From contig NC_135259.1 in assembly GCF_964204865.1 (NCBI RefSeq), forward strand, positions 19,664,974 to 19,728,973: a DNA stretch of 64,000 nucleotides, in the 5' to 3' direction. Below are positions 4,544 to 59,032 of this stretch, piece after piece. The notes below the pieces were generated by a model that did no database searches, was not told the origin of the DNA, and saw only the letters and a program-made list of their open reading frames with translations. Both the position numbers and the translations under genes were made by a program. The stretch comes from Styela clava (Eukaryota; Chordata; Ascidiacea; Stolidobranchia; Styelidae). Each line of letters begins with the position of its first letter. Position 1 is the stretch's first letter.

Positions 4544-4837
4544 TTAATTATCAGTTGGATTCTGTATCACTATCAGAAGATATTCCTTATCGGGAGCGAC
4601 CATTATCTCATGTTTTTTCGATCGAAGTCGGAGAAACGTAAGGTCATTCTGGGGGTCAATATCTCGAATTGTGCTTCGTGCTTTCATCGTTAACATATTG
4701 ATGAGACCGGAGTATTGTACGGTTGTTGAATTATCCAAAGTTGTGCGAATTGGGATTCCTTCGTTGTTTACAACTATTATTCCGATAACTCCTTTATGAG
4801 CTTGGATTCTTTTTATAGTTTCTTCAACTTCAGACAT
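4544..4837 (-). CDS. DYNLRB: Dynein light chain roadblock-type (LC7/km23)
   Basis: A 97-residue single-exon protein that aligns over its whole length with the metazoan DYNLRB1/2 family, which is usually 96 residues. It starts [17 protein letters not shown]. It keeps the family's [15 protein letters not shown], the core [19 protein letters not shown], and the C-terminal [19 protein letters not shown]. In the family, two copies form a homodimer that binds the intermediate chains of cytoplasmic dynein and helps attach cargo. The fold is a small alpha-beta roadblock domain covering nearly the entire protein. The start is the only ATG in a position matching the family N terminus. No intron interrupts it. 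I cannot tell the DYNLRB1 from the DYNLRB2 type. A dynactin p150 gene lies 19 kb away but there is no sign of shared control. Confidence 0.96.
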
Positions 4838-23715: not shown

Positions 23716-23734
23716 TATCTGCTAGTTAGGAAAA

Positions 23735-26700
23735 ATGGCGGAGGGAATGAAGATTGGGGCGAGGGTTAATATTATTGGAAAAAATTTGAAAGGAACAATT
23801 GCTTACATTGGCGCAACGATGTTCGCAAGTGGGAAATGGATCGGCGTTGTTCTGGATGTTCCTAAAGGAAAAAACGATGGCACAGTGCAAGGGAAAAGAT
23901 ATTTTGAATGTGGAGAGAATTTTGGTGTCTTTGTTAGACAGCAACATATTAATGTGATTCCGCAAGATTCTGGCGGAGAGCAGGCTAGTGAATTAAAGAC
24001 TCCTAAGTCTGTCTCTAAGAATGTAAAGAGGGTTTCAGAACCTGGTGCTCGTGCTCCGAGCCCTTCTCAACTTCCTACACCAAGTTCGAAAACATCAAGC
24101 CTGCCGATTCCATCATCGTTACAAAAACCGTCAGCAAAATCTGGGATTTCACCACCAAGCAGCAGAACACCGGCACCAGTATCTTCTGCTCCAGCTCAAG
24201 AAGAAACAACTGAAGCTGTTGCAATGCCTCAGCATCATGAACCACAGCCATCTGCGCTTTCAAGCATATCTGCACTGGCAGGGGGAGTGTCAATGGCGGA
24301 AGTTGAAATGCTAAAAGCTCAAGCTAAGGATTGGAAAGACAAATTCGAAGCGATCAGATTGAAACGACAAGCGGATAGGGACAAATTAAAAGATCTAGAA
24401 AAATCGAAGCTTCAAGTACAACAGTTAATGGAATTTAAGAACCGCATGAGCGAACAAAATCAAGATTTATCGAAGCAACTTCGGGAAGCTAAAAAGGAAG
24501 CGACAGAAGCTGTCGAGTCTAAGGAACACTACATAGAAGAGATGTCCGACGTCCACGAAACTGTCGAAATGGCGACCCTTGATAAAGAGATGGCAGAAGA
24601 AAAAGTTGAAACTCTTCAAGTTGAAGTTACTTCTCTCAAAGAAAGGGTTGAAGAATTACAAACTGATTTAGAAATCATGAAAGCGGAGATTGAGGATAAA
24701 GGATCCGATGGTGCTGCATCCAGTTATCAGTTAAAACAACTCGAAGAACAGAACGCTAGATTGAAAGAAGCGTTGCTGAGATTGAGAGATTTATCTGCTG
24801 CAGAGAAAACGGAACGGTTAGGAATGGAGAAACAAATTGAAAAGAAAACAAAAGAACTAGATGAAGCATTGAACAAAAAAGAAAAAATCTCCGCTGAACT
24901 GGAAAAAGCAGAATCTGTTATCGATGAGTTAAAAGAGCAAGTGGATGCTGCTCTCGTAGCGGAAGAAATGGTTGAAGAATTAACAGATAAAAACTTAACT
25001 TTGGAAGAAAAACTCGCCGATTATGAAGAACAAATTCATGATTTAGAAACGATGAACGAAATGAATGAGGAATTGCAAGAAAATGCTCGAGAGAACGAAA
25101 TGGAATTAAGAGAGGAAGTTGATCTCGCTCGATCGAACATGAGAGAAGCAAGACGAGAGACTGAGGCAGCGAACGAAGCGATTAATGATTATCAGGATAC
25201 CATCGGAAAATTCCGCAAACTTGTGCAAGAGCTACAAGAAGCAAATCAAGATTTGCGTCAACAAAATTCAGATGATGGCAAACCTGAAGAACCGGAAATA
25301 CCGGCCCCTGCTTTCAATTACCAAATTAAAATGGGGGGAACAAAAGCTGCTGCTCGCTCTATAGATCTCGATTTGCGAAAATTGGAAGCGCAACAAGCGA
25401 ACGAACATGTAAAATTTTTATCTATGTTTATGCCTGGTTTGTTCTCGAAACGTGGTGGAGATAACGACTGCGTTCAGGTTTTACTGCTGGTTCAACGAGT
25501 TGCTAGAAAAGCTGAAATAATAGCTAAACATGTTGCGGATCGTTTCGAGGTTTCTGTGGCTGTTGATAACGTGGCTGATTATCGCGGAGCAAGAGGAGAG
25601 CAGTTAACTTTTTCTACAGGATTTGTAAACACATTAACACAACTTAAAATTCTTATGGAGAAATTTGAAACTGCTTTGGGACATTGTTCCGTTGAGCTTT
25701 TTCAAAAAATTGGAACTTTACATGCTGAGATGTCTCCCCATGAGTTGGTTCTGGATGTCTTAGCTGAACAACTCAGAAAAGATACTTTGGACGAAACTAC
25801 GAAAGTTGACCAACTTACTAAATCAGTAGACTTTTTCAAGCATTTATACAGTGTTCACCTAAGTAAAGAACCGTATTTGGATTGTTGGAAGCTTATTGAT
25901 GAATATATCAACCAATCTACCGCTCTTCTACAAAATATTCATAATAACGCCTCAAGAATGAAGTCTTATTTGAAGACAGGTCAAGAAACAAGCGACATTG
26001 GCCTCCTACTTCGTGATATTGACACAGCTTCTTCTGACGTGAAACAATTTTGTAAGAAGTTACGGCGTCGAATCCCACAACCTCCGGGAGGAGAGGACGG
26101 AAAAATGCAGTCAAACAAATTACCAATGCTTAAATTTAGTCATGATACAGTTGGTAAGATCCAAGAAAGTGAAAACAACCTTTTCAAAATCTCAGTCGCA
26201 TTAAATACTGCAATAAGTCAGTGTTCACTTCAATCTGGTCCTGATTACAGACAACTTTCTCACCAAGAACTACAAGCAATTTTTGAAAGATCAGCCAAGC
26301 CCGTATTTACCACAGAGAAAGATGGTTATGAAGGTGTCAGACTATCTATAGGGAACGTAATGGCAACAATGAATTCACTTATTACTTCTCTACAAGAAGG
26401 GGAATTTGATACGAAAGAGAAAAGACCTGAGGTGTCACCACCAGTTAAGAAACGCGCCCAAGCTGTTAAATCTGAAATAACAGACTCTGAAGGGCTTGCA
26501 ACGAAATTAAGCGATAAGGATACAGTAATTCAAGAACTAAGAAAATCTTTGAAACTGAAATCGGCTGAAATGGGGGAAACGAAAATCAGAATTGGAATGC
26601 TAGAGAGAAAACTAGAAAAAAGTGGAAAATTTGGAGAAGAACAAGTCAGCAGATTGCAACAAGAAAACGATAACATGAAAGAAGAATTGAAAAAGAAAGA

Positions 26701-27535
26701 TAGAGAATATGATGAAACGTTAGACACTCTTCAGCATGACATTGACACGCTCGAATATGAAAAGTCCGAACTTAAGCAGCGTCTTATCGCACAATCTAAA
26801 CGCTCGTACGCTGATGTAAAAGGAGATACAGACCGCGCATCACCTTTGAAATCAAATATAGCTTCACTATTAGCTGGAGCTACGACAGCGTCTGGTGGGA
26901 CGCCAGGTACTCAGATTGTCGTTGAAGACTCTCCGTTAATGAAAGAACAAATTCAAGCACTTGAAGTCGCGTTGCGATCCCTGAGAGCAGAAAAATACAA
27001 ACTCTTAGGCAAGAGTTTACATGATAGAATGAAGAGATTAACTCCAATTAACGTCCAGCGAAAAACAAAAATGGAAAAAGATGAAACTAATACTGAGTTA
27101 CGAAAACTTCATCTTAACCTTGAAAAATTGAAAGAGCATGTTGTATCAGTCGTTTGTCCAAAAGTTGTGAACATTAGTATAAAGAAATCTGGCGCGGAAC
27201 TAATCGGAAGCAAGTCACCATCTCAACAATTGGTGCAAGAGCAACTAAAATTACAAATAGCAAGAGAAAAAGTCGCTGAATTACAAATCAAAGCTCGCCA
27301 ACTTATGGCGGCAACTAAAATGGGAAACCGTGTGGAACGACAGTTCACTTCGTTCCCCACCACTGAGTTTTCGAAGAGTTTGCTCACAGCTGGTGCAGTG
27401 GAGATAGGACGACTATCACTACCGTCAGATTCATCTCAGAAAGCTCAAGAGTCATTCAAACCATTAGTTCTGCAACCTGAAGAGCTGATGCAACTTCATA
27501 ACAAAGTTGTCCAACCATATTTAATACAACAGTAA
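23735..27535 (+). CDS. DCTN1: Dynactin subunit 1 (p150Glued), single exon
   Basis: An uninterrupted ORF of 1266 residues; human p150Glued has about 1278. Residues 5-75 form the CAP-Gly domain, with the microtubule- and EB1-binding GKNDG motif at 45-49. A basic Ser/Pro-rich linker follows (about 78-180). A long coiled coil (about 186-513) is the dynein intermediate-chain-binding CC1 region. The helical p150 core follows (about 530-890, with LRKLEAQQANEHVKFLSMFM near its start), then a second coiled coil (about 915-1025). The C-terminal part ends in LHNKVVQPYLIQQ. The protein is the largest dynactin subunit and joins dynein to microtubules and cargo. Start: first ATG, with A at -3. The unusual point is that no intron breaks the gene, whereas vertebrate DCTN1 has about 30 exons. 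Confidence 0.97.
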   Translation: MAEGMKIGARVNIIGKNLKGTIAYIGATMFASGKWIGVVLDVPKGKNDGTVQGKRYFECGENFGVFVRQQHINVIPQDSGGEQASELKTPKSVSKNVKRVSEPGARAPSPSQLPTPSSKTSSLPIPSSLQKPSAKSGISPPSSRTPAPVSSAPAQEETTEAVAMPQHHEPQPSALSSISALAGGVSMAEVEMLKAQAKDWKDKFEAIRLKRQADRDKLKDLEKSKLQVQQLMEFKNRMSEQNQDLSKQLREAKKEATEAVESKEHYIEEMSDVHETVEMATLDKEMAEEKVETLQVEVTSLKERVEELQTDLEIMKAEIEDKGSDGAASSYQLKQLEEQNARLKEALLRLRDLSAAEKTERLGMEKQIEKKTKELDEALNKKEKISAELEKAESVIDELKEQVDAALVAEEMVEELTDKNLTLEEKLADYEEQIHDLETMNEMNEELQENARENEMELREEVDLARSNMREARRETEAANEAINDYQDTIGKFRKLVQELQEANQDLRQQNSDDGKPEEPEIPAPAFNYQIKMGGTKAAARSIDLDLRKLEAQQANEHVKFLSMFMPGLFSKRGGDNDCVQVLLLVQRVARKAEIIAKHVADRFEVSVAVDNVADYRGARGEQLTFSTGFVNTLTQLKILMEKFETALGHCSVELFQKIGTLHAEMSPHELVLDVLAEQLRKDTLDETTKVDQLTKSVDFFKHLYSVHLSKEPYLDCWKLIDEYINQSTALLQNIHNNASRMKSYLKTGQETSDIGLLLRDIDTASSDVKQFCKKLRRRIPQPPGGEDGKMQSNKLPMLKFSHDTVGKIQESENNLFKISVALNTAISQCSLQSGPDYRQLSHQELQAIFERSAKPVFTTEKDGYEGVRLSIGNVMATMNSLITSLQEGEFDTKEKRPEVSPPVKKRAQAVKSEITDSEGLATKLSDKDTVIQELRKSLKLKSAEMGETKIRIGMLERKLEKSGKFGEEQVSRLQQENDNMKEELKKKDREYDETLDTLQHDIDTLEYEKSELKQRLIAQSKRSYADVKGDTDRASPLKSNIASLLAGATTASGGTPGTQIVVEDSPLMKEQIQALEVALRSLRAEKYKLLGKSLHDRMKRLTPINVQRKTKMEKDETNTELRKLHLNLEKLKEHVVSVVCPKVVNISIKKSGAELIGSKSPSQQLVQEQLKLQIAREKVAELQIKARQLMAATKMGNRVERQFTSFPTTEFSKSLLTAGAVEIGRLSLPSDSSQKAQESFKPLVLQPEELMQLHNKVVQPYLIQQ

Positions 27536-28389: not shown

Positions 28390-29641
28390 GATCTAGGGTC
28401 AATCAATATTTACTTACACTATGATTTATATTCTCAGTAGCTCATGGCACTTTAGTGGGCCGCCCATAATTTCGCTCACAAACCAGTCCCCTTTGTTTCA
28501 GAGTGAAAGCTCTGAACTTTGCTTGAAGTAAATATCCTTTAAAAATCCATGACTGTAAAAATAGTGGTCGTTTAGTTGTCTATTTATCGTCACTATAGTG
28601 TATATTATGTATGGTGCTTGCCAGATATGTATTATTTGTTGGTTGGCAATGTCATCCATGGAATGAGAGCTCAATTCACGACAATTTTTTCACACTTAAC
28701 AAAGTGCAACTAACTTTTTCACTCAAACAATTCAGATTTGTCAAGCATAGTCACTGCATAAACTGTGCTTAAATTTGTTAAAAAATTATGAATTTCTGAT
28801 CGGATTCCAAATAATTTTCTTTGGCCTTCCATGGTTGAGATTTCACCTTCATTAGTGTCACTTTATAGTTTATAGCCCCATATAGTTTATCTGTCAGTAC
28901 TCGTATTATATACCTATTTTGTGTATTTTCATTGCTTGTAATTCATTTTGTTCCGAAACAAAGTTCCTTTGCTTTAGGGTATATACCGCATGCAGTGTTT
29001 CAGTCCTGTACAGTCACCTATTTATCCATTGAAACCACTTAGAATATTGTTTACAATCTTTGTTAGGCTTTGTATTATCCGCCACAAAACATAGGGAACT
29101 ATTCATCTTGAAAAAAAAAAATTGACTTCCTCAATTTGTTTACATCCCGGGTGAGGTGGTGGACTAGTATTAGTGGGCTAATAACTACCAGGGTTTGAGC
29201 CAGAAATTCTCGTATATAGTTAGACAAACATCCCAACTTTCAGACCATCATACTCCTTATGGAGGCAAAATTATCGAATATATTCTGAAGGGGTTTTGAT
29301 AATTACTGAAAACAACAGAAAGACACAGTTTGGGAGAATTTATCAAGTTCAAAATTGAGGTCGAATCCAATCTTAAAGGACATAATATGTCACATTCACA
29401 TTCGAAATAGCATGGCAAAAAATGAGCATTATTGGGGCAAGAACTGAGAGGAAGTGTTTTTCGGCTCTAGTGGTTAAAGCGCCCATTGTTAGTCTTTTTC
29501 CGCTTTTTTCAGTAATTATCAATTCTCCCAATTTTGTTTCTCCTCACATACATTTAAAGATATTGGTTCTAATACTTGTTCAATTGTGTATTTAAATATA
29601 GCATAACTGAGTTATAGTTAGTTACATGGTCTAGAAAAATC
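28390..29641. other. Intergenic between DCTN1 and MRPS7
   Basis: No gene seen. A stretch around 29146-29215 (GGTGAGGTGG, then GGGTTTGAGCC) is faintly SINE-like but too degraded to call. Confidence 0.35.
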
Positions 29642-30385
29642 ATGCTCTCATTGGTAAAGAATGCTGTTACTTTGCAAAGAGTTTGCTTCAGGCATTTGAA
29701 TGCTAAATTGAAACTGAACAGCTTGAATGTATTATCGGCCAATCAAAAAGCTGCACATCTCTCTACAACTGGTATGGTTAACTCTGTTTGGGAAGAAGAC
29801 TGGGCTGCTCCAGTGCCTGATCGAGAATTTTATCGTCAACATCCACCAGAGGAGGGCGATGCGCTCTACAGAACGAACGTTCGAGCAGCTCCAACGCGAC
29901 ATTTTTACTCGTATTTTTACGATCCTGTGCTTCAGAAATTTGAAAAAATGATTTTGAAAAAGGGACAGGGATATACAGCTTACCAAATATTAAGTAATAC
30001 TTTGCGAAAAATAAAATTAACGCAGGTGACAAAATATCACAGAGCGTCTGAAGAAGAAAAGTTGGATATTGAAACGGACCCCGTTGTTATTTTTCATCAA
30101 GCGATTCAAAACGCCACTCCAGCGATGAGTTTAAAACGAACTGTCAAGGGTGGGTCGGCATTCCAGGTTCCCGTTCCTATTTCAGATAATAAAAAGTTTT
30201 TTTTGACGTCAAGCTGGATTTTAAAACATTGTCGACAGCGCAGGCAAAGGACGCCAATATCAGATCGCTTGGCTAAGGAAATACTAGCCGCATATAACAA
30301 TGAAGGAGTCGCAGTAAAAAAAAAGCAAGACCTTCACAGACAAATCCTTGCCAACAGGGCTTATGTTCATCTAAGATGGAAATGA
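29642..30385 (+). CDS. MRPS7: Mitochondrial ribosomal protein uS7m
   Basis: A 247-residue single-exon protein; human MRPS7 has 242. Residues 1 to about 45 are basic and Ser-rich with no acid (MLSLVKNAVTLQRVCFRHLN), as in a mitochondrial targeting peptide. The uS7 fold covers about 95-245. It includes PAMSLKRTVKGGSAFQVPVP, the RNA-contacting segment RQRTPISDRLAKEILAAY, and the family's ending ILANRAYVHLRWK. uS7 is a head protein of the mitochondrial small subunit and contacts the E-site tRNA and 12S rRNA. The chosen ATG gives the targeting peptide. A two-codon upstream ORF (ATGGTCTAG) lies just before it. MRPS7 sits 1 kb upstream of SIRT7 on the same strand. Confidence 0.95.
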   Translation: MLSLVKNAVTLQRVCFRHLNAKLKLNSLNVLSANQKAAHLSTTGMVNSVWEEDWAAPVPDREFYRQHPPEEGDALYRTNVRAAPTRHFYSYFYDPVLQKFEKMILKKGQGYTAYQILSNTLRKIKLTQVTKYHRASEEEKLDIETDPVVIFHQAIQNATPAMSLKRTVKGGSAFQVPVPISDNKKFFLTSSWILKHCRQRRQRTPISDRLAKEILAAYNNEGVAVKKKQDLHRQILANRAYVHLRWK

Positions 30386-31365: not shown

Positions 31366-31419
31366 ATTTAAATTTGTGATTTATTATGACCAAAAGAATG
31401 ATTTTAAAATAGTTTTGAC

Positions 31420-34400
31420 ATGGGAAGGTATGATGGTAGATTAAGAAAAGAGAGAAAGACAAGTACAATACAACACAATGAAGTTTCTTCTAAACAAACA
31501 ATTAGGAATAACATTAAAACCATCTTGAAGAAAGACGCGAGTTTACTGACGAAAAACGAGAAAGAACTACTGACTAAAAATGAAGATTTTGTTCAAAAAT
31601 TGGATAAACATCAAAAGGCAGCGACTCTCAGAAAATCCAGACTTTTGGAGATTGAAGATGACGCTTGTATTGTGATGGAACAATGCAAAAAACTTGCTGA
31701 GGCGTTAAAAACGAACAAGCATGTGATTGTATACACGGGAGCTGGAATGAGCACTTCAGCGAATATCCCGGACTTCAGAGGTACGGAAGGAGTTTGGACC
31801 AAGTTGAGCTCAAATGTGAAAATCAACCTTGAGCATAGCTTGACTAAAGCGGAACCCACTGTCGCTCACATGGTACTGAAGAAACTGTATGATGAAGGTA
31901 GGTGGGCTTTTAAATATCCAGTTTAAATAAAATTTGAGGTCAGGAATAAAAATAATGATTTATCTAATCTACTGTTGTTATGCAAGGTGCCCAAAAAATT
32001 TCGCCCGATTTTATAGTAATTACAATTGTAGTTCTCAATTATCATACAATAAAATTTATTTAAACTCACGATTAGTATTGCTATAAAATTAGGCAAAGTT
32101 TTCTGGACACCCTGTATATAGGCTACATATTGGAATAATTCATTCGAACAGTTTATTTCCATATATAACGTAGAGCATGTAAAATAATGTACCTATATTT
32201 AATATATTTTGAACTCCCTGAAAAATTGAAAATGGCCAAGTCATAGTCTATGTTTAGTCATAACACCTGTGCAATAAAACTTGAGTTGTTGTTGTTGGAT
32301 TGTTTTCAATGTACAACGTTATTTTGTTTTTCCATATTATTTGTAAGGAGTAAAATACAAAACACATATTTGTTTTAAATCTCAGGAATTGTGAAACACA
32401 TAGTGTCTCAAAACTGTGATGGACTTCATCTTCGTAGTGGTCTTCCTCAGAATGCATTGTCTGAAATCCATGGAAATATGTATCTAGAAATTTGCACTGA
32501 ATGTGATAATAAGGTATGGATTGTTGGAAATAAATATTATATTGAAACTTTTGTACCTTTACCTAATGCTGTTGATGTTCCTGAAACTGTTAGAAGCCTA
32601 AGAAAAACATAAGTTTTTGTAGTGAATTGGTCATATTGAAAATCGATGAAATAAACTGAAATACATTTTTGAGCCACTCGAAACCAAGCCCATTTTTTGC
32701 TGAAAAGTGATTTTTTAGTAAGATATCTGATTCCGAGATATAAGAAATTACTATAGAAACTGCCAGAAGCACAATACAACTCAAATTTCTAACTTCCAGT
32801 AAATAAGGAATTGGATTTTGAATATACACATATGGATTTACTCAAAAATCATCAATAAATAAAAATAATATACTAGTAGTAAAACAATCTCAAATTTATC
32901 GTTGGTTCAGATTAAAACCTCATAATCTCCCGAACCAAATGCATCCTAAAATAATATCTCTCAAAATAGAATAAAGAATACTTTCTAAATTAATTTATGT
33001 TCACAATCATAACAAAACTATTTATTCGAAAAGAAAGTAAATATTGATCATGTGATGACCATGACCACTATATAAAAATCATTGCTATTTCATGTGTTTC
33101 TAGATTTATCGCATTTTTGATGTGACTGAAAAGACTTCTCTTCGTCGACACAATACCGGAAGGATTTGTGAATCATGTCAGGAGGAGTTGAAAGATACGA
33201 TTGTTCATTTTGGAGAGAGAAGCAAGTTAAGGTATTTACGAAGTGACATCTTTTACAAAATAGAATTCTCTTCAAGAATATGCTATTTAACTATCCAACT
33301 GTGCGTGCTTTCTCCTTGTTTGGAGTGATGGTATGGAAACATATCGTAAAAAATTGTGACCAAAATCGACGGACCAATTTTTTAGTTCACTTATTGGCTA
33401 TGGGGGAATGAGAACTTACATAATAACGTTTCAGACTCATCGATATGGCTTAGACATGTGGTTTTTGTTTTAGTTTTTTTTGAAAAAAAAAATCAATTAC
33501 TCAGATGTTAAAAAGCAATCTGAGAAGAGAAAGACTAATTATATCATATGACGAGCCATTCCTTTCTCATATTCATATGTGTGCAGCACTAGTGTGGAAA
33601 TAGCTATTCAATGTGTACTCCCGTAGTATATGTACCAGGTTAGGCCATAATTTTATTCCAATTTTCCCTTATTTTAGTTCTATTACGAGTTCGGGGACTA
33701 GTCAAGTGACTTCCGTAGTATTTGTTCTTGAAATTATGGCCTAACCCCAAACTGAAAGTATATTACTTTCTGCTGTCCGCCATCTTGGTTCACATACTAC
33801 GGGCGTGCCATTTATTGGCTTGTCCCTGTCAACATAGCACATGGTGCCCCCATTATTCAGACAATCAATGTTTAATATTATCATTGATTTTAGGTGGCCT
33901 CATAACTGGCAAGGTGCTGTTGAAAATGCTGAAAAATCAGATTTGATTCTCTGCCTTGGTTCAAGCTTGAAGGTTCTCAGATCTTACAAACATTTGTGGA
34001 TGACTGACAGACCGAAGCATAAGCGACCACAACTGTATATCGTTAACTTGCAATGGACACCCAAAGACACTCAGGTAAGAATATGAAGTATTGTTTTTCT
34101 TCAAATCTGGACTCCTAATGAATGGAGCAAAACTCCAGTGGTTCTCAATCTTCTACTGACTGAGTGCCACTTTGTGTTTTTTACTCTGATAGCGTACCAC
34201 CGATAACTTCCCAGCTTTTGGAGCGTGGAACAATGGCACAGTAAACGTGATATGGGAGTACTTTATATTGTGGCACTACATCTATTTTCAGAGCTTCTCT
34301 TAGAGCACAATGGAAAGAGAAAGCGTTGCTGGCTGCTGCCCTATTTTAGCCATCTCAAATTATTCAAAGATTCTCAGTGACCACACTTACCACTCGCATA

Positions 34401-41617: not shown

Positions 41618-44600
41618 TCACATTTTCAGTGATTGCTCATCTCGCTTGATTGTATCATACAATACATTTTCCACCATTCTATTGCGGTCAGGAACTGGTC
41701 CCGGAAGATTGAAGTCATCATCGACGGTTTCGTATGTTGGTGGTGGTTGTCGATGTCCGTTAATTTTTTGTCTTCCCTGATTTATATCTGTTTGTTTTGG
41801 TGTATATTTCCCTGCACTTTCCGACAGTGAAGTTCTAGTCTTTCTGATCTCGTTATCCGATCCACTTCTGTAGTTTCTTTAGAATTAAATAAAAATGTAA
41901 TTTTATTTAAGTTGAAAATTTTTATTTCATGGAAGGGAAAAGCGAATGGCACAACGAGCGAACTGCCGCGTGGGTAACAATCCCACTTGGTTATTAGGCA
42001 TCGAATTGTAATCTTTCGAATGTTTTAGACAAAATGCCACCAAATAAAAATATCAAGAACAAAATGTCGTAATCTCTACTAGACACCATACCGATTGTTA
42101 TCAAACATACACGAACGCAAGTGGGTACCACGTAATGTGTGTGCCCGGTTAGAGTTAGGCCATAATTTTAGTCTAATTTTCCTCATTTTAGTTCTATTAC
42201 AAGTTTGGAGACTGTCTGTGTTAGCCAAGTGAATATACCCTCTGTTCATAGGTTTCAGTCCCTTTACACAACTTGATGTAAAGTAGGCGAACAAAATTAG
42301 TTATCTCCATATTGGTACACACACTTCTGGAGCGCCGCCATGCGAAACAGAAGAAGTTTGCAAGTTGAATGCGTCGTATCTATTGCGATTTGTATGTAAT
42401 TCACATATACCGTGTACTGATAACTGATATTTGATTCATCGATTTTGGCACCATATTTAGTCAAAATTGTCTTCTGTAATTGATAGATTTTGATGAATAA
42501 AAAACAAACTTACTTTATTGACATTGCGATTATGACTATGATGCAGATGAACAAAATTGCTCCCAGTGCCACGAATATTATCAACACATGAATATCATGT
42601 AATGATCCAAGAAATCTAGAACTTTTTTGGTTTTCTGAAAAAATCAAAATAACATAATATTACGAATATATTCTAACACACAATTTCAAAATACTAAATT
42701 GTTTCGAAGTGGGTTATAGATATAACAAAATAGCAAAGAAGATTTTTAGCTACCGATTGATTAGCTGCTTATTGTCACTCCTGACGTTTTTTGAGTTCGG
42801 TGTATTTTGGTCACCAATCCATAGATATCCCACACTAAAACTTCGTACCATACAGACGGTATGTCATACCGTAGAAATATGATGCCAACTATAGTGGCAT
42901 CTGTAAGAGGATATTCGTCTATGTAGGAATATGTACAACTCGAATTCGAAATAAATTGAGCCGGGTCGAGTTTTTGAAGTGTTTACGACAAGTCGACAAC
43001 AAAATATATTATCACTACCATGTAGTTATTTTAATTATTATGATTCAGCATTTGGTTTTATATCTTGGGTAAACACTGCAATCACCATACCCCGCTTCTT
43101 CGGAATTAGATAGATTTTAAGTTTTGCCTTTAGAAATACAGACCTGGGTTTTCGTTGCCTGAAGTAGTAGGTTCGTCTGATGGCAATGGTGTCGTGCTTT
43201 CTGAAACATATAAATGATGATAAATTTTTTTGTTTGCTTGTTTAGAGATACATTCACGAGTCTTTGCGGATTTGATGTTTCGATCAATACTTTTATGTTA
43301 GATTGTTAGTTTGTCTATACCAGGCGTAGGCAACCTTTTACGGCTCGGGTGTCAAATTCGGCCAAATTTAACGACAAAATTCCTCTGCGCGCCGACCGAA
43401 ATTGAAAACAATGCTTTGTTACTTTCAAAGCAAAAATACACAATAATAAACCCTTTAAACATGTACAGACATATTCATATTCGGGAAAAATCAGTCCGAC
43501 AAATAGATTTGATTACTTTTCTTATTCTATATCAGAGAGACTTGCTGCATTACCGCTGATAGAAATTTTACATTGAGTTTATATTTTTCAACTTTCATAT
43601 ATATACACAAACTACTGGTTTCGTCTTTCCGGCTACTCCTGTTACAAAACTTAATAAAGTTCATAACTGAGAACAGAGATGCGCAATTATATGTATATGA
43701 AAACATGGAGCGTAATGCAGATGCGAAGCTTTTAAAACACGAAAATTTTCGGGAATGACATCTCAATCACGCAATAGTTCGTTTTCTGCACTTCTCTCCT
43801 GTATTCCTTTCCCTAATAGCTTATATATATTTCTTTTGACATCAATTTACTAGTACGTTAGCAAGTAAATATAACCAACATGAGCTGTATAGTTTCATAA
43901 ATCAAACAGAAGTGAAGAAAAGGGGTGGCAAAGAGACGAACTATTACGCCAGAATGTAGCCAAATGAATGCTGCGCTCTTCTCGACAAAATTTCTCGAGA
44001 GTTGACTCATTTGTACGTCATAATATATTCCATTGTAGCCATATGTCATGGAAGGACAAAAAGAGTTTAAATATATTATCATCAAATTTAATCAGATAAT
44101 TCAGAGTATTGAAACTTTTATTTGGATAATGATCTCGCTTCCGAGCCTCGCTCGCGTGCCGAATAAATGAGCTCGCGTGCCAACTTTGGCACGCGTGCCG
44201 GGGGTTGCCCGCCCTTGGTCTATACTATATAAAAATGATAATTACTGTGCGATGACGTTACTTCGCGATACAGTACAGATATTTTACGTCATTGTGATAT
44301 TGTCTGGTATTTTATTTATCAAATAAATGATGGATCGATTTTCCTTTTCAACGTGACTAATAATAATAAGTAAGAATATTTCCACACGCGCTTAAATTCT
44401 GATATAATTTTCTATAATGAGATAGTTGACATGTTTCCGGAAATGATTAGTGAATGTTCATATCTACATTGCAGTCATAATTAGATTTCATCTTTATGAT
44501 TTGGTGCTATGTCTAAATGTCGGATTTTACTCAAAAATAAAGCAGGCCGAATAAGTAATAAATTTCTGTTACGATCACAAATTGAGTTTTATATAAATGC

Positions 44601-47600
44601 AGAAAATTGCGCGGTCAATTTTTTCCTGATAATTTGGCACCGCGCTAACAAAAAGCTTGATGGCATAGTGTATACCAGGGGTGGCCAACCTACTTGCGAC
44701 CGCAATCGACTAAAATCCTCAAAATAGTGCCCGATCCACTGATCAATAATAAGGTCACGCAAAAAAACAATGAGTACTGAATTTGCAGATACCTGCACAT
44801 ACGCATACAAAAAATTCCGCCGCTGCCAATAAGCTCGGTTCCTTGGCGCATTTTTAATGAAATAGCTATAATTTCTTTTATTTTTCATGTTCCATTTAAT
44901 TTTTCAATTTGAATATGCAGTTGTACCTGGGGTTAATGCCTCATCATTTATTCAGGATTTCAAATCATACAATTTTGATTAAAGACCTGCCTAATTTTTA
45001 TTCGTAAGTGTTGAGAATTCCTCAAAAAACCTTGCTATGTAATCATCTATTATCTAAACAGCCAAAATAAATATTCCCAAACTATAAATGTTACATGACT
45101 GCTCAAACTTCCCAATTTACACTTTCCTCCGAGTACGATTCTTCGCTCACTTGGAATTAGAAAAAAATTGGCATTCTGATACCACTGCTACCGTTGCGAA
45201 TAAAATGTATCACACTACTATCGGAATTAGACAATTACTTTTGCATAGTGCAGAAGTTATTGTACGATCGTACGTGAGTCGAGGCACATGATATTCGGCA
45301 AGTTCATTTTTTAACATCGGCAGCGGCGAAACTTCATTTTAGTACGTTATAATATGCTCCTCCGGCCTCGCCCAGGCTCAAATACTATATGTGTTTATCG
45401 TATTTTGCGCATGCACAGTATACTGTATTATTCCTGTTTTAAAATACACAACAAGCGTTATGAAAATGGTTCAAGGCATTTTTTTGAGGAAGGCCTATGT
45501 TCTCTCAACATCCGACACGATCGACTACTCAAGACGTGTCGATCAACCTATGGGCCACCACTGGCGTATACAGTGCGTGAACATACTTTTACTCCAACTG
45601 CTCCATACGCCCTTTCCTTTCAGGAATAACAATTTACATACCCAGTTAATGCTTTCGCGTATCAATCATAAAAACATACCTGGCTCAGGATAAGAACATT
45701 GAATGAATTTATATTTCATTGTGAACGATTTTGGTTCATCCTTGTAAGAGGTAACAGCAATTCTTTTTGGAAGTTCCTCAACGTTCACGAAATTGATCTT
45801 CCCATCACAATGACTGAAGTGGTTAAATAATTCCTTGTTGATGAATTTCAAATTGCAAGATAATTCTGGTGTGGCGTAGATATGACAGAACGGTGGTTCA
45901 TGCTGACACGTTACTCTGTCTGTAAAATATTCCGATTATTTCGTTTCTTGAAAACAATTACGGACCTCCAAATCACATAATTATAGCGGATCGTGGCCTA
46001 TTATAAATTGATAATAAAGAATGCTGATAGTCATCCGTTGGTTAAGTGCTTCAAATACAATTTAGTCTGAACTAATCTATTTATTTAATTTTTAACTTCT
46101 GAAAAGTCGCTATTAAATAACGATTTTTGTACTTGTACTTAAAATAACACAGTACCGATGAAATAAATATGTGGGCTGCATAAAAAGCGCCTTGATTTGA
46201 GATTTTGAATTATCTTGAATTACAAATGCCATACTCAAAAATTAAATTTGGCTACTTGAGTTTCAAACTAGCGCCTTGCGACTGAGTTATAAAAATAATG
46301 ACGTAGTGCTATAGTTGTCAGCGGTGATATTGTAGTCGCACTTCTGATTACTCTGCGTGGGTTCGCAGGATCGAATCACACGCGGGGTAGTAAATTATGT
46401 GCGAAAGGGCTGCTGGACTCCTCGTCACCGTAGGGTGGTTCACGTAACCGCTGATTGGTTACGGCTTCCCCTGCCATCTCTCCCATGCATTTGAAAACAA
46501 AGAACTGACTAACTAATTCTATAGCCGTGGTTTACCACATAGTATTATCAGCATTATTATTTCTTTCCTCTCTCCGGGATAAGTATGTATATTCTAAACT
46601 TTATCCTAGTATCTTAGTTTGTTGCTATTACGATGTATCCGTGCTATGCCACCACTACCTCACATTGGCACAGAAAAGGAGGGAAATTGTTGACTCCCTT
46701 TTTTGAAACTTGCATTGTTCAAATACCTGGTAAATACAATCTCGCGCTGCATTCTTTTCCATTTGGTCCATCGTACGACATTCCCAATGATTTCACGTGT
46801 ATCACGGCCACGAAATGTTTGCTTGGTAAGATAGGAAATTGCCATAATCGAGTATCGTTTGCAGAAAATCCAAAGTAACTTATTTCGTCCTCAAGCTCCG
46901 TAAGTTTTATTTGATACAGCGGGTGAGCAGTTGAGTAAAATCCAGCCAATGCGGAATTGAACGAAACTGCAATTACAAAGTAGAAAATTCATTTACTCCT
47001 AGTGAGTCTTCAGAAAAGTGAGATCACTTTGTACAAGTCCGAGTCAGGCCTAATCTTATAGCCTTTAATTTGTGAATCAACAGAGCGCGCTTACCCCGCG
47101 AGCATTTTTTAGCACGCTTGATCATTCACGGTAATAGGTTTGAAACTTTGACAAACTACCGTGTGAACCTGCGGAGCGAACCGTCAGCTCCAGTGGCGCA
47201 ATTTGTTAGCGCGCCGTACTTATATGACAGAGATGCGGACGTTGTGAGTTCGAGCCTCACCTGGAGCGATTTTTAGTACGCCCAATCAATCATTCACGGT
47301 ATTAGGTTCGAAACTTTGACAAACTACCGCGTGAACATGCACGACGAACCGTCAGCTCCAGTGGCGCAATCGGTTAGCGCCGCGCTTATATCACAGCTAC
47401 GGACTGATGCGGAGTTGTGAGTTCGAGCCTCACCCGGAGCAATTTTTAGTACGCTTAATCTTTCATGGTACTAAGTTCGAAACCTTGACAAACTGCGAAC
47501 CCGCAAAATCGGTCGTCAGCTCCAGTGGCGCAATCGGTTAGCGCGCCGTACTTATATGACAGCTACGGAGTGATGCGGAGGTTGTGAGTTCGAGCCTCAC

Positions 47601-48273
47601 CTGGAGCAGTTTTTAGTACGCTTATTCTTTCACGGTGCTAGGTTCGAAACCTTGACAAACTGCCGAACCTGCAAAATCAGTCGTCAGCTCCAGTGGCGCA
47701 ATTGGTTAGCGCGCCGTACTTATATGACAGCTACGGAGTGATGCGGAGGTTGTGAGTTCGAGCCTCACCTGGAGCAGTTTTTAGTACGCTCAATCTTTCA
47801 TGGTACTAGGTTCGAAACCTTGACAAACTGCCGAACCTGCAAAATCAGTCGTCAGCTCCAGTGGCGCAATCAGTTAGCGCGCCGTACTTATAGGACAGCT
47901 ACGGAGTGACGCGGAGGTTGTGAGTTCGAGCCTCACCTGGAGGAACTTTTGGTACGCCCAATCAATCATCCACGGTATTAGGTTCGAAACCTTCACAAAC
48001 TGCCACGTGAGCCAGCAAAATAAATCGTCCGCTCTAGTCGCGAAATCGGTGATTGCGCCGTTCTTGTATGTAAGATAGTTCAACAAGCTATTTCGTTTTC
48101 TATTCAACGAAACATTTTTTATCTACCAGTCAAATTTTACCGATGCGGCACACTGTCAAAAATGACCTTAGTTCTTTACTGTATCTTGACTATTTATCTT
48201 CTTCAAAGCAATGTATCAATAAATACTGAGTTCACTTACCATGAATAAGAATGAAAAAATAAATCCGATTCAT
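41618..48273 (-). CDS. CUB-like type I membrane receptor with PPxY and ITIM-like tail
   Basis: An unnamed gene predicted from six exons: 48273..48240, 46966..46727, 45919..45680, 43200..43144, 42634..42514 and 41876..41618. Every junction has gt-ag signals and agreeing phase (1,1,1,1,2). The protein has 316 residues. Residues 1-19 form a signal peptide (MNRIYFFILIHVSFNSALA). The ectodomain, encoded by two 240-nt exons, has six cysteines and looks CUB-like (KLTELEDEISYFGFS; LWQFPILP; SFTMKYKFIQC), but the match is weak. Exon 4 encodes a Ser/Thr/Pro stalk. Exon 5 encodes the membrane helix HVLIIFVALGAILFICIIVI. The tail of about 85 residues has PPPTYETV (PPxY type) and NVLYDTI (ITIM form V-x-Y-x-x-I). 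The plan fits a signalling surface receptor; ligand and function are unknown. Intron 1 contains the tRNA array; intron 3 contains a hAT element. Confidence 0.72.
42124..42336 (-). mobile_element. Family Z element in the receptor's last intron
   Basis: GGTACCACGTAATGTGTG at the left, CACTTCTGGAGCGCC at the right. The inside matches copy 1. No clean duplication remains. Confidence 0.8.
43321..44217. mobile_element. hAT element (897 bp), perfect duplication
   Basis: CAGGCGTAGGCAACC at the left pairs with GGGTTGCCCGCCCTTG at the right. GTCTATAC is repeated exactly at 43313-43320 and 44218-44225. It is longer than the other hAT elements here but no transposase motif was recognised. It lies in intron 3 of the receptor gene. 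Confidence 0.9.
44676..44930. mobile_element. Partial hAT-type element
   Basis: One end only: CAGGGGTGGCCAACC, followed by GCGACCGCAATCGAC. The partner end was not found, so the right limit is a guess. Confidence 0.45.
46333..46610 (+). mobile_element. SINE copy, head truncated
   Basis: GTGGGTTCGCAGGATCGAATC keeps the B-box side. GGCTGCTGGACTCCTCGTC and GGTGGTTCACGTAACCGC match the 37245 SINE. It lies in intron 2 of the receptor gene. Confidence 0.75.
47187..47268 (+). pseudogene. tRNA-Ile(UAU), array copy 1, altered
   Basis: Starts GCTCCAGTGGCGCAA and ends CACCTGGAGC. The D loop reads TTTG where copy 3 has CGG, and the intron is about 8 nt shorter. The anticodon arm CCGTA/TGCGG still pairs. 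Functional state doubtful. Confidence 0.6.
47355..47441 (+). pseudogene. tRNA-Ile(UAU), array copy 2, probably defective
   Basis: About two bases are lost between the D arm and the anticodon arm, and one in the variable loop (GGAGTTGTGAG). The acceptor and T arms remain. Confidence 0.6.
47519..47608 (+). tRNA. tRNA-Ile: tRNA-Ile(UAU) with intron, array copy 3
   Basis: A 90-nt gene. GCTCCAG pairs with CTGGAGC, the D arm is GCGC/GCGC, and the B box is GTTCGAGCC. The anticodon TAT is at 47553-47555 in the loop CTTATAA. A 16-nt intron occupies 47557-47572 directly after base 37. Spliced, it gives 74 nt including the discriminator A. TTTTT follows as the Pol III terminator. It closely resembles animal tRNA-Ile-UAU genes, which normally carry an intron. 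Confidence 0.93.
47687..47776 (+). tRNA. tRNA-Ile: tRNA-Ile(UAU) with intron, array copy 4
   Basis: Identical to copy 3 except T for C in the D loop (AATTGGTTAG). The intron, anticodon TAT, acceptor stem and terminator are intact, so it is probably functional. Confidence 0.92.
47855..47944 (+). pseudogene. tRNA-Ile(UAU), array copy 5, mutated
   Basis: CAGTTAGC replaces CGGTTAGC in the D loop. The 3' acceptor arm ends CTGGAGG, which breaks pairing with G1. Probably non-functional. Confidence 0.6.
48031..48080 (+). pseudogene. Degenerate sixth tRNA-Ile copy
   Basis: GCTCTAGTCGCGAAATCGGT resembles the 5' half of the array tRNAs and is then lost after the anticodon stem. Confidence 0.5.
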
Positions 48274-53927: not shown

Positions 53928-56900
53928 TTATTCGCAACGGAACTTCATTTCCACCGCTTTCAGAGATTCCTCAGACAAAGTGGACCAGTAAATTCCTGGT
54001 AGAACTCTGACATCTTCCGAGCGATAAATACCATTGAGGTGTGACGTGTACGGGGTCCCGAACCACCATGCGCCATTGTGTTCTTCCGCTTCGGTGCATT
54101 CCGAGGGAGAACCGATGCTGCAGAACTGTACACCTGAGCTGGAATTCAAAGCATCTCCAGCATTGCCTGTGTAGTTGTGGACGGATAACGTGTAGAGCGA
54201 TGACGGATCACCAACGGAGAACGCACTACATAATACACAATACAAAATATTATTACTTGACGTCAAAATCGGTAATTCGTTCCTGTTCATAAATTACCCG
54301 AAATCAAATGGTTAGATCAGTGGTTCGCAAACATTTCAATACCGCCACCCCTAAATCGAATTATTAAAAGCTTACCATCCATTCATAAAAATACATTTAA
54401 ACATACATCACAACGGTGATAATACCGATAGCTATTGCATCTTCTGATCAAAATTTGCTCGGCGAAGTATTGTTATTGTGTTCCTACCAGCCGCATGACT
54501 AGGTAAAGGCATTGCAAGTCCAGCTTTTTTCAGACTAGTCATAAGTAAGGGATTCTAAAAGAGACTGTTGGAACAGTGAACATCTTAATTACCTCTCAAA
54601 ATTGCCAAATTTCAAATAAATACCCCAGAGGGGTAATTAACCATGCCATTGGTTATACTTGGGCCAGGGACCAGGGTATTCATATTCGATACAATCAATT
54701 CACTTCTTGACCTGGTTTCAATTTTAAATGTATGGCGCGTAATAGGAATATAGTTTGCCAGTGCGACAGCCTGATATACCACCTGATCGTTTTAAACTTA
54801 TGTTCTATTCCCTGACTTCTCAATTCTAGCTAATGACTTAACGTTGACCGGGTAAGACTCGGCTTTGTTAATATAACTGATATAGAGCGCAGGCCCAATT
54901 TTTTTAAGATCAGCAGAGTAAAGTTTCAAAACTTTACTCAATGTTGGAAGATTACTGAAGTTGCAAACGATGCGCTAAAAACTACCCCAATGCGGCACTA
55001 CACTTGAAAAAAATCAGGTCATCACTTCTAAGGAACAAACAGTATGGTTGTCATGCATTCCTACCTGTATTCTGCGTAGTGTGCTGTTGAGTTCCAATCC
55101 AATATATCAACTCTGAGCGAACACTTACCTCTTCGTGTGAACTGGTTTAATGTTTCCAAACCTGGAATAAATTGCTACAATGAATTATAAGCATTATTGA
55201 TCCCTTTTCGGTGAAATTTAAAACTATGAGAACCTGCGACACAAAAAACTCAAATCAACCAAAAAAAAGCATAGTTAGCAACAAGTATAAGAATTATTCA
55301 ATTCAATGACACCTAATATTGATGTGAAAGTATAGAATTTAGGCAATTCGCGCATTCATATTTTGTATTTATATGATATATATCCTAGAGCTAAGATCTG
55401 AAGGTCGGGCCTGAAATGTCAATCACTACGTTCGGGTCGGGTCGAGCCGTTTTTTTTTAATAAATATATGTTTTTAAAAAAATATATACTAAAACTATGT
55501 GTGGAATTCAGAGAACTCCAAAATAAAATATGAAATTTCGGGTTTGCTTCGGGCTCGAGCCTGCAAATCCAGTTAATTAGTCGGGCTCAGGTCGGGTTTG
55601 ATACCCACGGGCCCGGGTCGGGCCGGGCTGGAATTTTTGGCCCCGATTTGACCTCTAATTTATTCTGGTCAAATGAACTTGAGAAAAATTTCTTTTGGAG
55701 GAACTTGTCCAAAATGTTATTTTAAGAGCGTTTGTCCAAAGCAAGGTCACACGGACTCGCTCATATTGGAATTTAGAAAACTCATTTCTGAGCAACGATA
55801 TGAGTGGCCACTGAAATGTCAAAAGCTATATGTATTGATGTTGATGCATTACGCGACGCTCCAGAATCGTGTGTAACAATATGGAGGTAACTAATTTTGT
55901 TCGCCTACTACACCAAGTTGTGTGAAGGAACGAAAGTCTATAGGCAGGAGATATATTCAGTGGTGGAATTCAAATTTTTTTGTCAGCCGTATTTTTCAGC
56001 CGGTTCTGTTACAAAAAGTCATATTTTTCCAGCAAATAAACCAGTAATGCTAACCGGTTCGCTAATCTTATAAAATTCCGTGAGACGGTTCTATACAACC
56101 GGTGCGACCGACTGAATCCCACCACTTGGTATATTCACTTGGCTAACACAGACAGTTCCCGAACTCGTAACTAAAATGAGGAAAATCATGGCCTAACCCT
56201 GACGTGGAACACACACTACGGAAGTACCCATTACCCACCATAAAATTGCTTATTGAAATTATCAGTGATTTATGAAACTAGTGCTATCTTTACCTAACCA
56301 GTAATCTTCATCGAATTTTCCAAACCCGTCAACATAGCTTTGCCAGTTTCTATAAAAATTTACATTTCCTTCCCGTCTTCTTTGAAAAACCTTAAAAAAA
56401 GTAATCAAAATTTCATTCATATTTAGGGGCTTTGCCAGATTAGAGAGAATTGTTTTTCAGATGTAGCCAGTATTTTCGAATAAACTTGTCTTGGTGTTGT
56501 CCACGAGTCGAAAGAGTCTTTTTGTGAACCGCGTTTAGTATTTACCAAATCATTTAGTAAAATTATTGTGAATTTAAGGCGACGGTTAACTACTATTTGC
56601 AAATTGGGCAGACGTACATTGGAAAACAGAGCATATCCTAGGTTGGTAGGTAACTATCAAAATTAATTGTCTAGTATCTAAAATCGGTGAATTATTAACA
56701 CTCGAACATGAGTTTGCTGCAAATGAATACAACGAAAACGACTCTTACCGTCCATACATTATTCGAGTCAGGCGAACAGTCACAGTATACGTCAACACCG
56801 GTCTTGTATGTGAATTCTGGGTAAATTGTCACGGGGGCGCCTTGGGTGGCGAATCCAATGGGTTTGTTTTGATGATTCCCTTTCTCTATACCATCACACC

Positions 56901-59032
56901 AGACAGAACAATTTTCGACTTTTATTGCTGCAATAAAGAACAGGATTAATTGCAATTTGTGGTAAGTAATCAATTATCGATACAATGCGTACAATATACT
57001 TGTATTGGACCAAGGGCCAATAAATATTTGTCTCCGACGAATAAAATCGAATTCAATAAACTGGTTTACGTAAAATATTTGACATAGGGAAAAAATGTAA
57101 AGTTACAAGCAGCAAGCAAGTTATTTTTATGAAAAGACAATTTTTGAATATTTTTACGGAAATTTTACTGCCATAGATTTATAGATGGTTTTATTTAAAA
57201 AAGCCAATGCAATTGATTAAAACTTTTTTCTATGCTTGGAAGTTTGTTAAAATTAACAAAATCAGGGATGCTCCAAAAAGTTTGAACATGCATACCTGGG
57301 GTGTTGCAGCGTCTATCTCCCCACTAAACAAAATATAAACAATCAATAGGTTTACGAGACACTGTAGATATTCTCTCAGAATAAGGCTGTAAATAGGCAG
57401 CTGAAAAAAAACTGCTATTTTTGGAAGAGGAAAGGGAATCTATTCTAAATATTCGACGCAAAACACTGATATTTAACTCGTCACATATTAGGACCTGAGA
57501 TATCAACCGCCGCCACCCTGAAATAGGTCGCCACGCACATTAAAAGTCAATATAAAAGTATACGTGCCAGTGAATGGACTGTTATTGCAACCAGTTACTC
57601 GGCGTCAAATTTCTTTGGAATGGCACTCACGTTATGTTGTTATTACCGAAGAAACTATTTCAAGATCTATTATGTAACTGAGAGCCATACTCGTCAGAAT
57701 ATAAACAATGATAAATGTCGCAATTGTAGGTGGAAAGTTACAGCCCCGCAATCGAAGCTAGGTACTCAGTAAACCGAAAACGGGAATTCCCACGTTTGTT
57801 TCTCCAAATTTGGGCATTGTTATTTGTGATCTTTATTACTGAACCCATCCAGTATAAATGAATATATACTGTAAATAGCAAAACAATTTATTTTCCAGGT
57901 TGTCTGCTTACATAACCTTGACAAAAATATTTTTGCAAAATTACTTGTATTTCAGAAGTTTTTGTACCAAATACAAGTAACCGCTTCATGATTAAAAAAT
58001 AATGACTTAGTTGGCCTTCATTGACATGACTCGTGAACAATAGTCGACTGAACAAAAACCTAAATTTACACACAATTTATTCCAGTCGATGCTAACTTAT
58101 AGTACTCACCAAAACGCCAAACGGCAAAGATATCCCAAAAGTTACAGCTATAACAAGCAGGTACAAGAAAATATTCTCTCTTTCTCTTGGCTGGACAAAT
58201 TGATCTAGAAAAAGAAAAAATTATTTTTAATATTTTGCACAATACCACAACAAGCAAGGCATGTACACTGATATTACAAAATTATCCAAGTTGGATTTTA
58301 GAACGTTTTCTAACATACCTAATCAAATAGTTGCAAGTTAAATATTTCACGTAGGCAGTGGGACCCCACTGGAGTCTTGATTGGTATGCTAAAGGCTGAT
58401 AGACGGTGGCACAAAAATGCCGTGTCCCAAATGTTTGAATCTCACTTCATATCTCAAAATCTTCTGCCAAAGTATTATATTCAGTCTAACCCAGAATATA
58501 ATACGATAATCGATTGCCCCATAATATTCACAACCACAGGTATGGGATGCGACATTTTTAAGACGCCGCAAATAAGCTACGTGGACATAGAAGTTCGTGT
58601 TTCGCAATATGAGCGATTCTTTTTTTTTATTTTGTTGTCAAAAATTTGATTTTCAAGAAAACTTGGCGGGTCACAAATTCTCTTTTGTACTCGATCTTGC
58701 CATATTATAACAACTTTTTGGGGCAAACGGCATTTTTATTATCGTATTCAGTGTTGGTGTCTAGTAATTATAAGATTAGACCTCGATTAAATTATTGCCC
58801 ACCTCCACCTCTTTGTCTTTCTGCACGTTCAGGAGACTGCATTTCTGAAATTTGAAAGATAGCACTCGTATGAATTCAAAGATGTTCACGTAGTATTTAT
58901 TACTAGTCCGATATTAACATATTTATTGATGATGTCCAAAAAGTATTAACGTAGCCCTAGGTTAACTTACCCACCTATCTCTATTTCTTCAAGTTCAGTA
59001 GACAATGCTGATTTTTGACAGATAGCAGTCAT
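53928..59032 (-). CDS. Signal-anchored fibrinogen-related protein
   Basis: Seven exons, 59032..58975, 58204..58110, 57323..57296, 56927..56749, 56390..56294, 55161..55065 and 54225..53928, join with agreeing phases (1,0,1,0,1,2) to 283 residues. A short cytoplasmic N terminus (MTAICQKSALSTELEEIEID) precedes a membrane anchor, NIFLYLLVIAVTFGISLPFG. A 9-residue exon with one Cys (GDRRCNTP) follows. The fibrinogen C-terminal domain then runs from NCSVWCDGIEKG to the end: TIYPEFTYKTGVDVYCD, FQRRREGNVNFYRNWQSYVD, GKCSLRVDILDW, YTGNAGDAL, HNGAWWFG, LNGIY and GIYWSTL. The layout resembles FIBCD1-like or ficolin-type recognition lectins. The usual Asp-rich calcium loop is replaced by FCSIGSPSE, and the Cys after WWY is missing, so ligand binding may differ. 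Exon 1 is the least certain part. Confidence 0.85.
54318..54500. mobile_element. Partial hAT-type end in a fibrinogen-gene intron
   Basis: CAGTGGTTCGCAAACATTTC is a hAT-type terminus. Its partner was not found; the right limit is approximate. Confidence 0.4.
55399..55656. mobile_element. GC-rich TIR element in a fibrinogen-gene intron
   Basis: TGAAGGTCGGGCCTG at the left pairs roughly with GGCCCCGATTTGACCTC at the right. The inside is rich in GGGTCGGGCC motifs, unlike its surroundings. Probably hAT-like; no clear duplication. Confidence 0.5.
55855..56228 (+). mobile_element. Family Z element interrupted by a hAT MITE
   Basis: GACGCTCCAGAATCGTGTG at the left, CACTACGGAAGTACC at the right. 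Flanks CATTACGC (55847-55854) and CATTACCC (56229-56236) agree at 7 of 8 positions. Without the nested insert it measures 196 bp. Confidence 0.9.
55958..56127. mobile_element. Nested hAT-type MITE (170 bp)
   Basis: CAGTGGTGGAATTCA at the left pairs with TGAATCCCACCACTT at the right. The 8-bp duplication is GATATATT (55950-55957) and GGTATATT (56128-56135); other Z copies contain GGTATATT only once. Confidence 0.92.
58797..58920 (-). repeat. Second copy of the fibrinogen-gene first exon region
   Basis: Aligns with 58973-59095: both have CCACCT, an ATG-bearing stretch, GATAGCA(C/G)TC and GTTCACGTAGTATTTATTA. This copy holds an ATG at 58842 opening a frame MQSPERAERQR and a G|gtgg donor at 58809, in the same phase as exon 1. 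It may be an alternative first exon or a relic. Confidence 0.55.

Follow-up and report, generated by a model that had tools for sequence, protein, structure and literature searches.

The vertebrate paired receptors LILR, KIR and SIRP are encoded in gene clusters, span the membrane once and have tyrosine-bearing tails below ectodomains of the immunoglobulin (Ig) type. Among invertebrate chordates the nearest systems in print are the fester co-receptors (FcoR) of the tunicate Botryllus schlosseri and the amphioxus receptor BbLcLRR. As far as the accessible parts of the two papers tell, the FcoR are type I receptors of a clustered multigene family, have Ig and sushi domains and 520–610 residues, and carry in their tails an immunoreceptor tyrosine-based inhibitory motif (ITIM), a hemi-immunoreceptor tyrosine-based activation motif (hemITAM) or the core motif Y-x-x-I/L/V (PMC12065747), while BbLcLRR has the ITIM-like tyrosines DDYATV and HDYSEV and reportedly binds SHIP1 and, to a lesser degree, SHP1/2 in Jurkat cells (PMC8211107). 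Here we analyse a 64,000-nucleotide stretch of the genome of the ascidian Styela clava (contig NC_135259.1, positions 19,664,974 to 19,728,973), called the window below, which contains a predicted receptor gene with a tail of this kind. Unlike the FcoR, its protein has one CUB-like domain and 316 residues, and Pfam gave no Ig or sushi match for it at E up to 10; unlike BbLcLRR, whose ectodomain consists of LRR (PMC8211107, seen in part), it would bind its ligand by a CUB-like fold. The likeness to the Ig-type paired receptors of vertebrates is taken here as no more than an analogy. In the accessible part of the Botryllus paper the word CUB is confined to reference identifiers (PMC12065747), and no description of an ascidian CUB receptor with an ITIM-type tail was found in the openly licensed papers, preprints and most subscription papers lying outside this scope. 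This is in line with an earlier note on this DNA, which had called the receptor undescribed, and is weak evidence of novelty.

A predicted receptor gene and its paralogues

Six minus-strand exons between positions 41618 and 48273 (Table 1) join to an open frame of 951 nucleotides coding for 316 residues, and all introns are GT–AG with the phases 1, 1, 1, 1 and 2. The predicted protein has a type I, single-pass layout: a signal peptide which by eye ends in ALA, an ectodomain with six cysteines (84, 96, 103, 113, 129 and 166) and one N-glycosylation site (N48), a Ser/Thr/Pro stalk, one strong membrane helix (hydropathy peak 3.53, residues 208–226) and a tail of 86 residues. Both the six exons with consistent splice phases and this order of parts had been proposed in the earlier note and are borne out. 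According to a custom splice score, exons 2 and 3 are the sole minus-strand open segments of 230–330 nucleotides in the 64 kb that run from acceptor to donor in phase 1–1; the same criteria yield five segments on the plus strand, four of which lie within the dynactin and ribosomal S7 open reading frames. In codon usage the true frame of the whole reading frame scores above the other five, and the tail exon ranks third in coding score among 113 open reading frames of at least 75 codons, the frames at ranks 1, 2 and 4 having been part of the training set.

The genome searched comprises 376.6 Mb in 379 contigs. With the window protein as query, the search recovered five of its own six exons, and a further 20 matches were weak, with E values from 0.009 to 5.3. 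Of these 20 non-self matches we class 19, each read on its proper strand, as exons of one family; locus L011 is a non-member. Exon finding around the matches revealed that the paralogue loci have two phase-1 exons, one for an N-half whose end resembles CSGEIRFP or CSARLYLP, the other for a C-half with conserved cysteines and the end FT..Y..[IV].C. The window gene fits this plan, with a phase-1 N-half exon and a phase-1 C-half exon followed by stalk, membrane helix and tyrosine tail.

Profiles were built from the paralogues, the window sequence being left out, and were then searched against the 1155 window open reading frames of at least 30 codons. The C-half profile placed exon 3 first (E 5.3e-18; runner-up 0.1), a test that is partly circular as most C-half members were first found via exon 3; with a profile of three members first found by another query, exon 3 still came first (E 8.2e-5; runner-up 0.25). 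The N-half profile placed exon 2 first (E 0.0019; runner-up 0.066), and this test is not circular because its members were located by splice sites near a C-half or by the L037 query and not by exon 2. Four loci outside the profiles also match them, though each had originally come up as a weak hit in the search with the window protein: L008 (4.8e-13), L017 (3.5e-5), L016 (4.4e-7) and L020 (7e-6). In reverse searches with the L037, C13 and L038 members window exon 3 was weakly listed (E 0.18, 0.295 and 0.5).

Some points speak against the reading of this locus as a member of a receptor family. The first genome matches are individually weak over their whole range of E values, residues 229–316, that is the tail, have no other match in the genome, and exons 1, 3 and 5 have coding scores at or below zero. 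The last point would suit a prediction artefact or a pseudogene; frame and splice sites are intact, however, and the paralogue-profile match reaches 5e-18, which makes such an origin very improbable. As exons 2 and 3 are unique by splice score and both match paralogues, the evidence goes beyond chance and the locus is very likely a real gene.

Besides the window gene there are 12 dispersed members: two on contig C1, one on C2, two on C4, one on C5, two on C6, one on C13 (18.93 Mb), two on C14 (3.80 and 3.36 Mb) and one on C16, whereby the C5 member and both C6 members have C-half evidence only and the C16 member has a weak N-half (E 0.015). The family count leaves out weak matches on C3 (13.06 Mb), C14 (3.79, 3.23 and 11.4 Mb), C2 (10.58 Mb, two rows), C10 (14.1 Mb) and C5 (9.3 Mb). 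With the C13 member as query 86 matches were listed in the genome. Among these is a tandem array of 260 kb on C14 (5.529–5.787 Mb) with at least 34 (about 34) C-half exons, two of them with internal stop codons; two listed rows were merged as one exon, and such counts are lower bounds. The same listing contains three further C-half exons at 6.16–6.19 Mb as well as two and a fragment at 19.04–19.05 Mb. Viral contigs searched with exon 3 gave six pattern matches, none of which was confirmed.

Within the subfamily of the C13 member the median ratio of nonsynonymous to synonymous substitution rates (dN/dS) is 0.48 for the N-half (55 pairs), 0.60 for the C-half (28 pairs) and 0.55 for the tail (10 pairs), values as expected of protein-coding exons. 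Positive selection was not seen in these pairs, dN exceeding dS in 4 of 55, 1 of 28 and 1 of 10. Judged by its sequence, the window gene is one diverged member of a large family of predicted receptors, and the earlier claim of a surface receptor in an invertebrate gains support from these paralogues. That relatives form a tandem cluster suggests that they serve recognition, be it of the immune, allo- or gamete kind. We regard the C14 array as a candidate polymorphic recognition cluster; by analogy it resembles the immune-receptor gene clusters of vertebrates.

The ectodomain and its probable CUB fold

The CUB-like ectodomain of the earlier note stands by way of the paralogue family, whereas the window protein itself fits no CUB model. 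For the family we consider it quite probable that the ectodomain represents a CUB domain in degenerate form, with additional disulphides in the C-half. This is suggested by a local CUB profile made of 14 CUB domains, ten of this genome and four of seminal-fluid proteins or PCPE. With this profile five of 11 family members take ranks 1–5 among 1166 sequences; in two cases E is below 0.01 (L038 with 18.8 bits, E 1.1e-4; L070 with 13.1 bits, E 0.0065), and L027, L037 and L069 follow with E 0.14–0.52. In addition, hhalign scored an alignment of eight family members against CUB at 26.2, the best of 50 column shuffles reaching 22.8. By these rank and shuffle tests the similarity of the family to CUB profiles exceeds chance. 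A search of this genome for the CUB family yielded 150 matches when the best 150 of 350 candidates were scored.

Several results are unfavourable to the CUB assignment. With E values up to 10 allowed, the HMM search proposed in the earlier note matched the window protein to no CUB model of Pfam, and in Pfam searches with nine family members one gave a weak match to a CUB relative (CUB_M02D8_5_3rd, E 0.021), which is below the cut-off of that model. In the PDB no relative was found for the window ectodomain or for the family profile. Against the local CUB profile the window protein scores 0.0 bits, a value reached by 26 of 162 scored shuffles; the hhalign probability for CUB is 24%; and a single-sequence fold of exon 3 alone is unusable with a predicted local distance difference test (pLDDT) score of 41. 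The CUB reading of the window protein is thus made because its relatives score as CUB, not because it does so itself.

The details of the domain point in both directions. As in the CUB family PF00431, several paralogues have the pattern CxW or CW in the N-half, and the domain size is roughly equal. On the other hand, the first CUB cysteine pair (C1–C2, with a cysteine at or just before W) is missing in the window copy and the C-half has extra cysteines. The cysteine at or before W is present in L037, L038 (as CW), L069, L070 and the C14-type members and absent in L039, L008, L016 and L020, the last three sharing this lack with the window copy. The window intron lies near the point at which canonical half-CUB exons of this genome are split, but its phase is 1. 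Among 16 such canonical exons the best donor has phase 0 in eight, phase 1 in one and phase 2 in one, no donor being found in the other six. An intron position common with canonical CUB exons was therefore rejected: it is nearby, and its phase is mostly different.

The cytoplasmic tail and its possible signals

The window tail has tyrosines at residues 233, 255, 279 and 304 and carries the core motif Y-x-x-I/L/V twice, as YETV and YDTI. These two SH2-type tyrosines and the PPTY motif, all named in the earlier note, are present in the sequence. VLYDTI does fit the ITIM form, being the sole strict match, but 10.3% of shuffled window tails have a strict ITIM, 8.8% have at least two core motifs and 2.0% have a PPxY.

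We also compare the tails of the paralogues. Downstream of the ectodomain, strongly hydrophobic segments are seen in L037, L038, L039, L040, L069, L070, L072 and L016, the exon joins to them being worked out for some of these loci; in L027 and in members of the C14 cluster no membrane helix was recognised. Ten tails contain the core motif 19 times as compared to 9.5 expected (4 of 2000 shuffles reach 19), and all ten have it within the last 25 residues as compared to 2.1 expected (none of 2000 shuffles), counts that are inflated because six of the ten tails (L037, L038, L040, L069, L072 and L027) were chosen by a search for tyrosine motifs. Of the others, the window tail was given beforehand, L039 was found via its membrane helix, and the mutually related L029 and L032 via an exon scan and BLAST relatives. 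Left out were L070 (no tail found in 8 kb), L028, L030 and L031 (near copies of L029), L033–L036 (no tail found in the stretches covered) and L008, L016, L017 and L020 (no tail identified). Letters beyond the searched motif recur as well: six of the ten tails (L037, L038, L040, L069, L029 and L032) have V[NQD]K behind their last tyrosine, with the ends YATVNK, YAAVNKK, YSVVNKSK, YSVVDK, YAVVNKDKK and YAVVQK. For strict ITIMs the ten tails show no enrichment: there are 4 where 2.2 would be expected, a number that 364 of 2000 shuffles also reach. PPxY occurs in the window tail only. The SH2-type tail of the earlier note is supported by these paralogue tails. Weighing against it are the selection of six tails, the window motifs, which alone are not beyond chance, and the window tail itself, which is without the YxxV[NQD]K signature.

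A different tail was observed in L039 (7413-7922), which is an array of the motifs YEIP, YEIP, YEVP, YEVP and YIIP, as in SH2 (Crk-type) docking proteins.

On balance we hold it moderately probable that the gene encodes a single-pass surface receptor, a diverged member of a tunicate family, with a tyrosine tail for SH2 docking. The degenerate CUB-fold ectodomain would bind a ligand, and upon engagement a Src-type kinase would phosphorylate Y279 and Y304. Both tyrosines, 25 residues apart and thus spaced like bivalent SHP docking sites, could then serve as docking sites for an SH2 protein, be it an adaptor or an SHP-type phosphatase with its paired SH2 domains, which would pass on an inhibitory or an activating signal. 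As Y279 is the tyrosine of both PPTY and YETV, we suggest a switch: bare Y279 might recruit a WW-domain (Nedd4-type) ubiquitin ligase and lead to turnover, and phosphorylated Y279 an SH2 protein, the two states being mutually exclusive. In Botryllus polymorphic HECT ligases adjoin the fester/co-receptor pairs, according to the accessible part of the paper (PMC12065747), which makes this ubiquitin-ligase idea worth testing.

The sequence of the tail fits SH2 docking of either sign, and trafficking too. YxxPhi is also the consensus for AP-2, as PPxY is for WW domains, and both are present in the window tail, so that the gene might code for an endocytic or adhesion receptor with an AP-2 type sorting signal and a Nedd4-type signal and without SH2 signalling. 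This is unlikely, as the YEIP, YEVP and YIIP motifs of L039 misfit AP-2 and fit SH2 docking, and several family tails have YAVV, YAAV or YSVV, which are near SHP-type motifs.

The earlier note went further and suggested an inhibitory receptor, in which Y304 would be a working ITIM recruiting an SHP-type phosphatase. VLYDTI has the form, and relatives carry SIYAVV and VVYAAV; Asp at +1, however, is atypical of SHP-binding motifs. Together with the missing enrichment of strict ITIMs and the single PPxY among ten tails, this leaves the inhibitory function not borne out, and we consider it possible but doubtful. Homologues of shp-1 and SHIP are expressed in Botryllus ampullae, which would suit an inhibitory signal, yet the core motif occurs in the Botryllus co-receptors alone or with ITIMs or hemITAMs (review, accessible in part, PMC12065747) and hence does not fix the sign of the signal.

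Neighbouring genes and implications of the family

Table 1. Exons and tail motifs of the predicted receptor gene and other features of the window
Feature	Position	Strand	Description
Exon 1	48240..48273	-	ATG and most of the signal peptide, MNRIYFFILIH; donor GTAAGT, phase 1
Exon 2	46727..46966	-	End of signal peptide (..SALA) and N-half of CUB-like domain, C84; paralogue-profile match
Exon 3	45680..45919	-	C-half of CUB-like domain, C96, C103, C113, C129, C166; paralogue-profile match
Exon 4	43144..43200	-	Ser/Thr/Pro stalk
Exon 5	42514..42634	-	End of stalk and transmembrane helix, about residues 207-228
Exon 6	41618..41876	-	Cytoplasmic tail and stop codon; strong coding score
PPTYETV	41723..41743	-	PPxY WW-type motif (276-279) overlapping YETV (279-282) on Y279
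VLYDTI	41648..41665	-	Residues 302-307, Y304, 25 residues past Y279; sole strict (S/I/V/L)xYxx(I/V/L) match
Five tRNA-Ile(TAT) genes	47187-47944	+	Tandem, within receptor intron 1
Fibrinogen_C exon	53928-54293	-	Pfam E 9.6e-12
Possible earlier part of Fibrinogen_C domain	56695-56973	-	By eye; without Pfam match
Dynactin p150-type protein	23726-27532	+	CAP_GLY and Dynactin domains; one open frame of 1269 codons
Jagunal domain	13074-13418	+	Ordinary neighbour
Roadblock/LC7 domain	4547-4858	-	Ordinary neighbour
Ribosomal S7 domain	29618-30382	+	Ordinary neighbour
Sir2 domain	31408-31923	+	Ordinary neighbour

The first intron of the receptor gene contains, on the other strand, five tandem tRNA-Ile(TAT) genes. 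Their starts are 164–168 bases apart, and their lengths of 82–90 bases suggest that they contain introns. Upstream of the receptor gene and on its strand there is a Fibrinogen_C exon, and a further segment may be an earlier part of this domain. Elsewhere in the genome there is one GH6 match (E 1.5e-6, 35.4 bits with a cut-off of 27), as would be expected of a tunicate; to our knowledge GH6 is missing from animals other than tunicates. Tunicates are the animals with a bacterial-type cellulose synthase (PMC6523144) and with GH6 genes (PMC7464555, PMC10334666), according to the accessible parts of these papers. A search of the assembly for COX1, meant to show the mitochondrial code, gave no match.

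The Fibrinogen_C neighbour bears on whether the receptor serves gamete or tissue recognition and not immunity. CUB and fibrinogen-like proteins take part in ascidian fertilisation, as stated in the accessible part of one paper (PMC9265791), and the exon stands upstream of the receptor on its strand, which would agree with such a role. Fibrinogen-related genes are common in animals, however, and we regard this explanation as improbable.

Tentatively, and with rather less than even confidence, we propose an unreported, tandemly expanded tunicate system of more than 40 loci, in which a degenerate CUB fold would be the recognition part of receptors with ITIM or core-tyrosine tails; the window gene would be a diverged single copy whose PPTYETV couples a ubiquitin ligase and SH2 docking. 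The published receptors of invertebrate chordates with ITIM-type tails have Ig and sushi ectodomains in Botryllus or LRR ectodomains in amphioxus, as far as the accessible parts of those papers tell. If our proposal is true, the large CUB-like set would mean that another binding fold had been newly joined to the same tail logic, and Styela clava would have a candidate recognition cluster in which polymorphism and expression in blood cells could be tested.

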